Of a stretch of 46,490 nt of DNA, positions 41,627 to 46,174 are shown one piece after another. A program made the translations under genes and the position numbers. The number at the start of each line of letters is the position of its first letter. The stretch's first letter is position 1. Below the pieces are notes generated by a model. It had not been told where the DNA came from. It made no database searches and saw only the letters and a program-made list of their open reading frames with translations. The stretch is from an uncultured Altererythrobacter sp. (GTDB lineage: Bacteria; Pseudomonadota; Alphaproteobacteria; Sphingomonadales; Sphingomonadaceae): NCBI GenBank assembly GCA_913056125.1, contig CAJXNC010000016.1, forward strand, positions 1 through 46,490, in the 5' to 3' direction.

Positions 41627-42856
41627 TCAGAGGTCGATCGAAACCCCGCCCTTCCACAAGGCGGTGACGCGACCCTCGGCAGGCTGGCCGTCGAAGGGCG
41701 TATTGCCTGCCTGCGCTTCCATCTTGCGCGAATCCACGATCCACGGCGCGACCGGGTCCACCAGCGCAATATCGGCCTCGTAACCTTGCACAAGTTCGCC
41801 CGCTTCCACCCCGAGCAGGCTCGCCGGATTGCGCGCCACGAGGTCGAAGGCGCGCGCCATCGTGATCTCGCCGTCGCGCACGAGGGTGAGCACCATGGCT
41901 AGCAGCGTCTCGGCCCCGGCCATTCCGGGTGCGGCATCGACGAAAGGAAGGCGCTTGTCCTCGGGACCGCGCGGATCATGGCCCGACGCAATAACGTCGA
42001 TCGTGCCGTCGCCGATGGCCTCGATCACGGCCTGCCGGTCATCCTCGCGGCGCAGCGGCGGAGACAGGCGGGCAAAGGTGCGGAACTCGGCCGTGGCGAG
42101 ATCCGACAGCATGAAATGCGCAGGCGTCACACCGGCGGTAACCGCAACGCCCCGCGCCTTGGCGGCCCGGACGAGGCCCAGCGCAGTGCGCGTCGTCACT
42201 TGCCGCAAATGGAGCTTCGCCCCGGCCAATTCGGCCAGCGCGATATCGCGTGCCACGGCCAGCGCCTCGGCTTCGGCAGGCGCGCTTGGCAGGCCAAGCC
42301 TTGTGGCCATTTCTCCCGCCGTCGCCACCGCACTGCCGGCAATCCCGCCATCTTCGGCGTGGCTGACAACCACCATGTCGAGCATGGCGGCATATTGCAG
42401 CAGGCGCAGCATCACACCGCTATCGGCGATCCAGCCGCGCCCGGTAGCTATCGCCCTTGCCCCGGCATCGCGCATCAGGGCGATCTCGGCAAGATTGTCG
42501 CCCGAAAGACCGGTAGTCGCGGCTGCTAGCGGATGGACCCAGAAATCGGGCTTGCCGCTTTGCGCGGCGAAGCGGACCCGCGCCGGATGGTCGAGCGGCG
42601 GGTTCTGGTCGGGCATGAGCGCAGCGCGGGTGATACCGCCGAAGTGGAATGCGGGCTTGTCGATAGCGAAGACGCCAAAGTCGACAAGGCCGGCCGCAAC
42701 CAGCTTGCCGCCTGCGTCGACGATATTGTCGCCTTCCTGGGGCCCCTCTCCGATCGCGGCAATCACACCATCGGCAAAGCGGATGGAAGCCTCGACAATC
42801 CCGCCGGACGTCACCAGCCTGCCGCCGGTAATGGTTGTGGGAGCGAGTTGCTTCAT
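41627..42856 (-). CDS. Dihydroorotase-like protein, probably non-catalytic (PyrX type)
   Basis: 409 residues with the amidohydrolase fold of type I dihydroorotases ([14 protein letters not shown] start, VSHAEDGG near 167, GAETLLA near 315). The metal-binding D-x-H-x-H after GLVD is replaced by DFGVF (residues 59-63), and the catalytic TDHAPH-like motif reads SGHDPRG (291-297), lacking the Asp. It is therefore unlikely to cyclise carbamoyl aspartate and resembles PyrX/PyrC', which supports aspartate carbamoyltransferase assembly. Its ATG overlaps the pyrB stop as ATGA with GGAGAG upstream, so the two are coupled. An active pyrC would be expected elsewhere in the genome. A GTG at 42862 is an alternative start. 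Confidence 0.82.
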
Positions 42857-44076
42857 ACCCACTCTCCTTCACCCCAGCCGGGTGTCTTGCGCGCCTTGCG
42901 CGTCAGCACGTCAAGGCAGGCCATGCGGATCGCCACGCCCATTTCCACCTGGTCGGTGATGATCGAACGCCCTTTGAGATCGGCAATATCGCTGTCGATC
43001 TCGACCCCGCGATTCATCGGGCCGGGATGCATGATAATGCAATCGGGTTCGGCCAGCGCGAGGCGATTAGCGGTAAGCCCGTAAAGATGGCGATATTCGC
43101 GCGGCGAAGGAATGAACTGGCCATCCATCCGCTCGTTCTGCAGACGCAGCATCATTACCACTTCGGCGCCGTCCAGAGCTGCATCGAAATGATGGAATAT
43201 CTCGACACCCATGGCTTCGATGCCGGCGGGCATGAGGGCCGGCGGCGCGCAGACCCGGACCTTGGCGCCAAGCGCCTGCAGGCAGAGGATGTTCGAACGT
43301 GCCACTCGGCTGTGCAGGATGTCGCCACAGATCGTCACGGTCAGACCGTTGAACATGCCATCGCTGCTCGCCCTGCCCTGCTGCTGCAGCTTGTGGCGCA
43401 GGGCCAGCGCATCGAGCAGCGCCTGGGTGGGATGCTCGTGCTGGCCATCGCCGGCATTGAGCACGGGGCAATCGACCTTGCCACCGATCAGGCCGACCGC
43501 GCCGCTCGACCCGTGGCGGATGACGATCGCATCTGCGCGCATGGCATTGAGCGTGACTGCGGTATCGATCAGCGTCTCGCCCTTCTTCACAGAGCTTTGC
43601 GCCGCATGCATGTTGACCACGTCTGCACCGAGGCGCTTGCCCGCGATCTCGAAGCTCAGCAGCGTGCGTGTCGAATTTTCGAAAAAGGCGTTGATGATGG
43701 TCAGCCCCGCCAGCGCGTCGCTGTGCTTGGTCGCCTGGCGGTTAAGCGCCACCCATTGCTCCGCCTCTTCAAGCAGGAATAGGATCTCGTGCGTTTCAAG
43801 CTGGCCAATGGATAGCAGGTCGCGATGCGGGAAGGCACGCCCGCCTGCCGGAAAACGCCCGCCAATGGATGCCTGGTCGGGCGATACCGCTCCCCCCGGA
43901 CCCGCGAAGTCCCGCATGAAGGCGCGGATCTTCTCGACCGTGCTGCTGCGAATATCGCGGCCGGCGCGCAGCTGAGAGACGAAGGGTTTGTCGTTGAGCA
44001 CCAATTCGCCAAAGCGCGTCTCGGACATGCCGTGACGGGTACAAAAGTCGGCGATTTCCTCGATCAGGTCTGTCAT
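42853..44076 (-). CDS. pyrB: Aspartate carbamoyltransferase fused to an N-terminal helix-turn-helix domain
   Basis: 407 residues in one uninterrupted frame. Residues 1-57 form a Xre/lambda-repressor-like HTH: helix [10 protein letters not shown] (18-27), turn NDKP, recognition helix [10 protein letters not shown] (32-41), then [11 protein letters not shown] linker (58-78) leads to a complete transcarbamoylase: [17 protein letters not shown] (135-138), HPTQALLD (from 215) and HPGPMNRG (from 350). The enzyme condenses carbamoyl phosphate and aspartate in pyrimidine synthesis. Usual catalytic chains are about 310-340 residues and lack the HTH. No canonical internal start with a ribosome-binding site lies in the linker; M54 is possible but lacks one. 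A palindrome with TTGACA lies just upstream, so autoregulation is plausible. Confidence 0.9.
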
Positions 44077-44101
44077 CGAAATCCGCTTTTGTTGGATAAA
44101 A

Positions 44102-44118
44102 CCAACTTGTCAAGTTGG
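44102..44118 (-). promoter_or_regulatory. Palindromic operator and -35 element upstream of pyrB
   Basis: CCAACTTGTCAAGTTGG is a perfect palindrome of seven-base arms around GTC. Read toward pyrB it contains TTGACA, the consensus -35. It ends 26 bases before the pyrB ATG. An additional GTTGG at 44091-44095 repeats one arm. No strong -10 is visible at 16-18 bases. It is a natural site for a dimeric HTH repressor. Confidence 0.6.
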
Positions 44119-44251
44119 AAACGGGCGAGGCGGTGGATAGCGGCCGTTCCCGCGAGTGGCAGCGCGCGTTTGCTGCTCAAGCGCTTTCGGCTGGCACATC
44201 CACCGCTCACCGCCTAGATTGCCCCAAAATCAGCGAAATGAGGCAGGATCG

Positions 44252-46174
44252 ATGAGTTTTGCAGGCAAGGTCTGGCGACTTTTGGTGGGCATCAAGGATG
44301 CGCTGGCCCTGATGTTCCTCTTGCTGTTCTTCGCCCTGCTGTTCGCTGCACTCAGCAGCAGGCCCAACCCCGGCGTGGTGCGAGAAGGGGCATTGCTGCT
44401 CAAGCTCACCGGCTCGATCTCCGAGGAACCCGCCGCGATCGAACCGCTCGACGTGCTCCTGTCTGGCTCCCTTCCCACGCGATCCTATCGCACCCGCGAT
44501 CTCGTCCGCGCGATCGACGAGGCAGCGCGCGATGAGAGGATCAAAGCGCTCGCTCTCGACCTCACCACCTTCACCGGCGGGGGCGCCGTGACCATGCAGG
44601 AAGTTGGCGAGGCGCTGGCCCGCTTCCGCAACACCGACAAGCCGATCTACGCCTATGCGGTCGCCTATTCGGACGATTCGATGATGCTGGCGGCCCATGC
44701 CGACGAGATCTGGGTCGATCCCATGGGCGGCGCAGTGATCCGCGGCCCCGGCGGCAGCATCACCTTCTACGCCGCCGCGTTCGAGCGTTTCGACATCACC
44801 GCGCATGTCTTCCAGGTCGGTGCCTTCAAGGGTGCCGGCGAGCCCTACGTCAACACGCAGATGTCGCCCGAATTCCGCGAAAATACCGAGGCCTATGTCG
44901 ATGCGATCTGGGAGGAGTATCGGGCGCATATCGTCCAGGCGCGCTCGCAGGTCGATTTCGATGCGGCGACGACCGGTTTGCTGGACCAGGTCGAGGCAAA
45001 TGGCGGCGATCTGGCACAGGTCGCGCTCGCCACCGGCCTTGCCGACACGATCGGCACACGCGAGGAATGGGGCACGCGCATCGCCGAAGTGGTCGGCGAA
45101 GACGAGTGGGACGATAAACCCGGCTCTTTCGCCTCGACCGATTACGACACCTGGTTCAACTCGCTCGAACCAGAGAGCTCCTCCCTGCGCAGTCTCTCCG
45201 GAGGCAAGAAGCAGATCGGCGTCATTACCGTCGCCGGTGAGATCGTCGATGGCAATGCCGGTCCCGGCACGGCCGGCGCATCGCGCATCAGCCGCCTGCT
45301 GGACGAGGCTCTCGATGACGACCTCGCCGCGCTGGTGGTCCGGGTCAATTCGCCCGGCGGCACGGTAACGGGTTCGGAAACGATCCGGCGCGCGATCCTG
45401 CGCCACAAGGACAAGGGCATCCCCATCGCCATTTCCATGGGCGATTACGCTGCCAGCGGCGGCTACTGGATCTCCACCACGGGCGACCGCATTTTCGCCG
45501 AGCCCGAGACGATCACCGGCTCGATCGGCGTCATTCTGGCCGTGCCCAGTTTCGAGAACCTCCTCTCGGAATACGGCATCACGCACGATTCCATCCGCAC
45601 CACCCCGCTGGCCGGACAGCCGGACATCCTGGCAGGCTTCACACCGGAAACGGACGCTCTGCTGCAGGCAGAGACGCAGGCGATCTACGACCGCTTCGTT
45701 AGCCTCGTGGCCGAATCGCGCGGCCTCTCCCTCCAACGCATGGAGGATCTTGCGCAGGGTCGGGCCTGGGCAGGGGGTGCAGCAAGGCAACTGGGCCTTG
45801 TGGACCAGTTCGGCGGGCTTGACGCCGCCATGGAATGGGCGGCGCAACAAGCCGGGATCGAAGAAGGCGAATGGGAGCCGCATTTCCTGCGTGGCCAGCC
45901 CGATCCACTCGCCGCGTTCCTTACAGGAATAGCCGGTGGCTCTGCCGAGGCTCCGCAAGAGATGGTCGCCGTTTCCAGCCAGTTCGCCATGCAGGAGCAG
46001 GACGCCCTCGCCCGCCTTTCCGCCAATTTCGATCGGCTGTTCAGCGCGCAGGGCGCGCAGTCCGTCTGCCTGCAATGCCTCGCCCTCGGCGCGACGCAGG
46101 CACAGCCTGCCCGGTTGCAACGAGGCGATGCAGATTGGCTGCAATTGTTGGCTGGCCGCTTCAGGGCATATTGA
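44252..46174 (+). CDS. sppA: Signal peptide peptidase SppA, long (67K) type
   Basis: 640 residues from ATG 44252 (AGG seven to nine bases upstream). One N-terminal membrane helix (ALMFLLLFFALLFAAL) is followed by two tandem S49 domains. The general-base lysine K193 (VGAFKGAGEPY) is in the first domain and the nucleophile S402 (GDYAASGGYWIS) in the second, the same split arrangement as E. coli SppA (K209/S409). It degrades released signal peptides in the periplasmic membrane face. The frame extends upstream to 44156, but those residues are not SppA-like. Divergent from pyrB across 175 bases; a promoter could overlap the pyrB operator. Confidence 0.95.
   Translation: MSFAGKVWRLLVGIKDALALMFLLLFFALLFAALSSRPNPGVVREGALLLKLTGSISEEPAAIEPLDVLLSGSLPTRSYRTRDLVRAIDEAARDERIKALALDLTTFTGGGAVTMQEVGEALARFRNTDKPIYAYAVAYSDDSMMLAAHADEIWVDPMGGAVIRGPGGSITFYAAAFERFDITAHVFQVGAFKGAGEPYVNTQMSPEFRENTEAYVDAIWEEYRAHIVQARSQVDFDAATTGLLDQVEANGGDLAQVALATGLADTIGTREEWGTRIAEVVGEDEWDDKPGSFASTDYDTWFNSLEPESSSLRSLSGGKKQIGVITVAGEIVDGNAGPGTAGASRISRLLDEALDDDLAALVVRVNSPGGTVTGSETIRRAILRHKDKGIPIAISMGDYAASGGYWISTTGDRIFAEPETITGSIGVILAVPSFENLLSEYGITHDSIRTTPLAGQPDILAGFTPETDALLQAETQAIYDRFVSLVAESRGLSLQRMEDLAQGRAWAGGAARQLGLVDQFGGLDAAMEWAAQQAGIEEGEWEPHFLRGQPDPLAAFLTGIAGGSAEAPQEMVAVSSQFAMQEQDALARLSANFDRLFSAQGAQSVCLQCLALGATQAQPARLQRGDADWLQLLAGRFRAY

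Follow-up and report, generated by a model that had tools for sequence, protein, structure and literature searches.

The regulation of aspartate carbamoyltransferase (ATCase) is a textbook subject, and the few enzymes that bear DNA-binding domains have been studied in detail; BirA, PutA and NadR are enzyme-repressor proteins. BzdR is reported to join an HTH to a shikimate-kinase-like domain in which catalysis has been lost (PMC3602430), and the ATCase chain of Pseudomonas aeruginosa is described as having only a short N-terminal extension of 11 residues (PMC7053772). Here we describe a pyrB gene lying in a 46,490-nt stretch of DNA from an uncultured Altererythrobacter sp. (the window), whose product is an ATCase that begins with an HTH domain and which looks to have captured both this domain and its DNA target site, in a few sphingomonad lineages, from a phage Cro-like repressor.

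A preliminary description of the window had read one frame as an HTH, a linker and a full ATCase with STRT, HPTQ and HPGP motifs, and this was upheld by the ORF, Pfam and NCBIfam results and by alignment (Table 1). Pfam found OTCace_N at residues 85-227 and OTCace at residues 244-390 of the 407-aa protein but no significant family before residue 85, and residues 1-57 on their own gave one sub-threshold match (E 0.076). NCBIfam NF002032 (382.7 bits against a curated cut-off of 263) and TIGR00670 (290.4 bits against 236.95) both began to match at residue 85, and the model for PRK11891-type long ATCases (NF008853, 430 positions) scored 138.9 bits, below its cut-off of 560. The three motifs, which we take to be those of the ATCase active site, were invariant across 24 aligned fused proteins, and the closest solved relatives of this part, by fold as well, were the ATCases of Bacillus, Staphylococcus and Aquifex. 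Judged on its sequence, the protein is a complete, active-looking ATCase joined to an N-terminal HTH.

Residues 1-57, modelled alone with AF2, gave a compact structure of four helices (2-15, 19-27, 32-37 and 44-56; pLDDT 90.6). Foldseek matched this model to Xre/Cro/lambda-repressor-like HTHs (SinR, HipB, P22 c2 and C.AhdI) and also to CUT domains, the matches being weak (E 0.7 and above, query TM about 0.6-0.75); no solved chain was matched by the HTH sequence. The predicted four-helix structure and the Foldseek lists, at these weak E-values, agree with the Xre/Cro-like fold first suggested for these residues; the domain falls among phage Cro-like proteins, and its predicted fold is of the lambda-repressor type. 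When the whole protein was modelled, residues 60-72 of the linker had a pLDDT below 50 and are predicted to be disordered; across the 24 aligned fused proteins the linker is variable, whereas a 22-residue core of the HTH is almost invariant.

Table 1. Features of the pyrB locus, in window coordinates, with the basis of each assignment.
Feature	Position	Strand	Basis
pyrC', degenerate dihydroorotase; its start overlaps the end of pyrB	41627..42862	-	ORF, NCBIfam, alignment
pyrB with N-terminal HTH (HTH-ATCase), 407 aa from ATG	42853..44076	-	ORF, Pfam, NCBIfam, alignment
ATCase catalytic chain, residues 85-391	42904..43824	-	Pfam, NCBIfam, PDB matches
Linker, residues 58-73; both its length and its sequence vary	43858..43905	-	Alignment; pLDDT <50 at 60-72
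Cro-like HTH domain, residues 1-57	43906..44076	-	AF2 model, alignments, tree
Putative recognition helix, residues 32-37 (FVSQLR)	43966..43983	-	Modelled helix; recognition role inferred from the HTH fold
Candidate operator GTTGGTTTTATCCAAC, holding the 14-mer TTGG-N6-CCAA from -29	44091..44106	-	Cross-locus comparison
Second inverted repeat CCAACTTGACAAGTTGG, sharing one half-site with the operator	44102..44118	-	Window clade; sequence
-35-like TTGACA, inside CCAACTTGACAAGTTGG	44108..44113	-	Sequence, promoter scoring
24-nt remnant of the non-fused pyrB promoter region, TGTGCCAGCCGAAAGCGCTTGAGC	44175..44198	-	Identical in L069
Divergent neighbour gene	44252..46174	+	ORF; start set by eye

The product of the overlapping gene, PyrC', scored below the TIGR00857 cut-off. 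Compared with the Aquifex dihydroorotase, an H of the HxH region is replaced by Q and TDHAPH has become SGHDPR, positions that we assume to be dihydroorotase metal ligands; without them, PyrC' is probably a structural partner of the ATCase, by analogy with P. aeruginosa (PMC7053772). The sole other TIGR00857 match in the genome was weak (35 bits, contig C1), and since PyrC' is itself degenerate, the active dihydroorotase probably belongs to another class. The divergent neighbour, presumably a signal-peptide-peptidase (SppA)-like gene, is not S24-like by eye and is the same neighbour as that found beside non-fused pyrB. Genome G000 also has a third carbamoyltransferase-fold gene (L003, on contig C8), an open frame of 370 aa, besides a 320-aa frame on C12 and PyrB.

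The fusion was confirmed as real and rare. A search of 5.8 billion proteins with residues 1-84 returned 24 clusters, every one an ATCase of 383-407 aa, and a second query, a Novosphingobium-like fused protein, returned 36, of which 19 were new, so that there are 43 fused clusters in all, each with both ATCase Pfam domains (P0023 and P0024 are annotated from residue 17). At the genome level the fusion was present in 1 of 149 family genomes (that of the window itself), in 3 of 40 from the genus of the window (G000, G166 and G176), in 2 of 397 from a wider draw of the family, in 2 of 195 from the genus of G208, and in two named Erythrobacter records (L091 and L092). It is therefore shared by several lineages and not confined to the window (43 clusters, 7 distinct DNA loci), a matter on which the preliminary description had called for comparison with related PyrB proteins. 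Among these genomes, G173 (96% complete) gave no PyrB-like match better than 4.7e-13, and the pyrB match of G007, like that of G079, was broken into pieces.

One origin suggested at the outset was a formerly separate small HTH gene that had lost its stop. Small separate HTH genes, about 40% identical, were found in 114 of the 149 family genomes with a 59-aa HTH query. Among the matches listed, none adjoins the pyrB of a non-fused family genome, and a host HTH gene upstream of pyrB was rejected on that ground as the direct source. The nearest standalone relatives are small Cro-like (pro)phage proteins, most often next to an S24-peptidase (CI/LexA-like) gene that points the other way. A loose regular expression picked out a divergent ORF bearing an S24-like motif beside 42 of 52 standalone HTHs, and Pfam Peptidase_S24 was confirmed in all 10 such ORFs tested, as well as in L173, L174 and L196. 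Thus the idea of a once separate gene stood, but with a phage cro-like gene bringing its own promoter in the place of an upstream host gene.

The standalone relatives also carry a characteristic site. A perfect TNGG-N6-CCN'A repeat was present within 168 nt upstream of 25 of the 52 distinct relatives, against a mean of 0.59 and a maximum of 3 in 200 dinucleotide shuffles, and when the spacer was varied from 0 to 12 the count was 25 at spacer 6 and at most 2 at every other length. L173, the closest standalone relative in the genus of the window, has the identical 14-mer TTGGTTTTATCCAA at -29, as at pyrB, and lies in a prophage, with terminase, integrase, SSB and Rad52 genes around it. Integrase, terminase and DnaB genes surround L174, and DnaB and DUF1376 were found near L201 (two proteins tested). 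A widespread small HTH gene (of the MLIRSIEKFL... type) is divergent from an S24 LexA/CI-like gene in L183 (712-1662), L185 (703-1662) and similar loci, with TAGG-ATTTTT-CCTA-GACAAG-TAGG between the two genes in many sphingomonads; this pair looks like a conserved host-borne switch of the Cro/CI type.

An alignment of these HTHs, used to scan viral contigs, picked out 16 phage loci. In every one of them an inverted repeat sits inside the 17 nt that separate a -35-like box (TTGACN in 15 loci) from a -10 beginning with TA; the 4-bp arms are perfect in nine and match at 3 of 4 positions in seven. The half-sites vary (TGGG, GGGG, TGTG and TTGG), TTGG occurring in two of the 16, L340 and L339, the latter a phage record matching the prophage of L173. 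Three further phages with TTGG half-sites (L319, L322 and L256) came from a search with the operator pattern and so are not independent support for the layout; in that search 5 of 123 operator-bearing viral stretches contained an HTH relative. Across L333-L348, L319, L322 and L256 the half-sites vary at a constant 6-nt spacer, a series that can be set against the residues around 31-35 in the manner of a recognition code.

The corresponding site in the host loci is coupled to the fusion. TTGG-N6-CCAA was found within 150 nt upstream in all seven distinct fused loci, whereas it was found in none of 124 non-fused pyrB loci, the start of the latter being fixed by rule as the Met nearest ahead of the RFPAG-like motif and only those with at least 100 nt upstream being counted. 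In the fused loci it invariably begins at -29 or -30 before the ATG, with flanks that differ between lineages; the exceptions among non-fused loci lie farther off, at -140 (L123) and -686 (L158) from STRT. The extended form GTTGG-N6-CCAAC is present once in the genome (3.0 Mb), a number within chance given two per strand in the backwards control. The 16-mer operator has no second place in the whole genome at up to two mismatches, and five at three. No regulon is proposed for the site, which on this evidence is local and not a regulon element.

An inverted repeat resembling CCAACTTGACAAGTTGG also occurs in the phage stretch L319. The -10 is poor in the window clade (in the window, CAAAAG at a spacing of 16 and AAAAGC at 17), and the top sigma-70 match of L091, L092 and L171 does not straddle the operator, the scores being taken without a shuffled control. 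The promoter layout thus appears fully phage-like only in the phages, and not cleanly so in the host loci. An inverted repeat at the start of the fused gene itself fits an autorepressor, and the proposal that the protein represses its own operon gained, in this conserved repeat at the pyrB start of 7/7 fused loci, the kind of site that it calls for.

The HTH and the enzyme have not shared one history. In a tree of 57 columns with numerous weak forks, which left out P0023, P0024 and P0025-P0043, the HTHs of 26 fused proteins formed one clade (UFB 96, SH-aLRT 88). The fused PyrB cores fell into three lineages (the genus of the window, Erythrobacter and a Novosphingobium-like group) that were interleaved with non-fused cores. 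Constraining the 26 fused cores together in a 68-row tree, in which the 42 non-fused rows were hand-picked and P0010 and P0012 omitted as near-copies, changed the log-likelihood by -432.9 (p-AU 1.2e-52), and a single origin of the HTH together with its enzyme core was rejected. At least 8 changes between the fused and non-fused state are forced on this tree; an earlier tree (152 rows, 28 fused) needed 12, at least 4 of them forced. We attribute these changes to recombination at the pyrB locus, through exchange or loss and in either direction, and the data fit one capture followed by such exchange or by repeated loss. Non-fused pyrB loci have a conserved upstream stretch in common, of which the window keeps 24 nt, upstream of the new promoter-operator; apparent decayed remnants of it were seen by eye in L091 and L092.

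Sequence comparison thus documents the fusion, its conservation, the coupling of the operator to it, and the phage kinship of both the domain and the promoter layout. From these we infer DNA binding, repression and a quaternary arrangement, and consider it likely that pyrB acquired at its front a cro gene from a phage, promoter-operator included, and that the fused enzyme now autorepresses pyrB-pyrC'. The cro-like gene, its promoter and its operator would have been inserted behind the former pyrB promoter and ahead of the coding sequence, with an in-frame junction, giving a single polypeptide of Cro-type HTH, flexible linker and ATCase. By analogy with the Pseudomonas enzyme this protein would assemble with the degenerate PyrC', and the HTH copies of the assembly would bind pairwise to TTGG-N6-CCAA just ahead of the start codon, repressing pyrB-pyrC' from the promoter brought along. 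The enzyme, in short, probably represses its own gene: because the DNA-binding domain is part of the enzyme, the amount of ATCase would limit its own synthesis and that of the overlapping pyrC'. Several points count against this reading: besides the weak fold matches and missing families of the HTH, the imperfect host promoters and the chance-level count of GTTGG-N6-CCAAC given above, the fusion is so scarce across family genomes that most of the family can do without it, and ATCase trimers are 3-fold symmetric whereas the operator is 2-fold.

Autorepression might in addition be gated by metabolites, nucleotides, carbamoyl phosphate or aspartate altering the assembly or conformation of the protein and hence its hold on the operator, as in a trigger enzyme. 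All the features that favour autorepression apply here too, and there is a degenerate PyrC partner as in P. aeruginosa, where nucleotides are reported to destabilise the ATCase-pDHO dodecamer (PMC7053772). Nevertheless, we regard gating as possible but rather doubtful, as the predicted disorder of the linker means that any coupling would have to pass through the oligomer state, and the same account argues against classical allostery for the Pseudomonas enzyme (PMC7053772).

An unlikely alternative is that the HTH serves in conflict between phage and host, either by repressing the early promoter of TTGG phages (superinfection immunity) or because phage CI/Cro act on pyrB. The 14-mer operator found unchanged in a prophage from the window's own genus (L173/L339), TTGG operators in L340, L319, L322 and L256 (the last three found via the operator search) and the patchy distribution, for which the PyrB-core tree demands no fewer than 8 changes, are compatible with such a role. 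However, the window genome has no second GTTGG-N6-CCAAC site, so no such prophage is resident, and simple replacement through homologous recombination also explains the patchiness. Both roles might be combined, with the HTH-ATCase autorepressing pyrimidine synthesis and also repressing the early promoter of infecting TTGG-operator phages, its repeated exchange at pyrB then reflecting phage pressure; this we consider improbable, but if true, one allele would provide both feedback control and immunity.

Slightly less credible again is that the HTH is a passenger, translated without a regulatory role, or that translation of PyrB begins mostly within the frame, at M54. Residues 1-84 are not needed for a complete enzyme domain, and M54 is kept in six of the seven fused DNA loci, including the window. 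The exception, L064, has no ATG, GTG or TTG anywhere in residues 27-95, and the fused proteins have lost the short leader (MTS...) with which non-fused relatives begin, about 17 residues ahead of RFPAG. An internal start, which had been raised in the preliminary description, is therefore contradicted as a rule, the native non-fused start being gone, but an additional start at M54 is compatible with the sequence in those six loci. In four close pairs the dN/dS of the HTH was 0.037-0.118, compared with 0.071-0.120 for the catalytic part; the fifth pair, L091/L092, was saturated at synonymous sites and yielded no HTH value. The linker gave 0.28-0.38 in three close pairs and, exceptionally, 0.025 in L171/L200, and across lineages the HTH evolves faster than PyrB (dN 0.21-0.30 against 0.13-0.19). 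In close pairs purifying selection thus acts on the HTH as it does on the catalytic part, and this, together with retention of the operator in 7/7 loci of three lineages, argues against a passenger. That sequencing or assembly had artificially united two genes is next to impossible and was ruled out, as 43 clusters from several sources and 7 distinct loci in different genomes have the identical joint.

Under the preferred reading, that of a captured and autorepressing HTH, a regulatory gene of a phage was apparently captured jointly with the site it acts on, and a housekeeping enzyme would thereby have acquired a complete autoregulatory circuit at a single stroke. As the domain exists both fused and free, with matched operators, this origin of a trigger enzyme is directly testable.

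In the open-licence literature, to which the search was confined (subscription papers were outside its scope), no ATCase with an HTH was found. Fusion of an enzyme with a DNA-binding domain is already known as a kind. The protein is like the catalytic chains defined by TIGR00670 and NF002032 in that residues 85-391 pass both cut-offs with their motifs intact, and unlike them in its N-terminal HTH. It resembles the P. aeruginosa ATCase-pseudo-DHO complex in the overlap of pyrB with a degenerate pyrC', but the chain described there has no HTH (PMC7053772). With BzdR it shares a DNA-binding domain set on an enzyme-like domain and differs in that its ATCase motifs are intact (PMC3602430). In BirA, PutA, NadR and BzdR the enzyme or enzyme-like part is a different one, and the DNA-binding part here is phage Cro-like and appears to have brought its operator along. 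Phage Cro-like repressors encoded beside an S24 (CI/LexA-like) gene are alike in HTH sequence, in operator architecture and in the distance to the ATG; they differ in that the HTH of the window is fused to an enzyme and its divergent neighbour does not look like an S24 gene.
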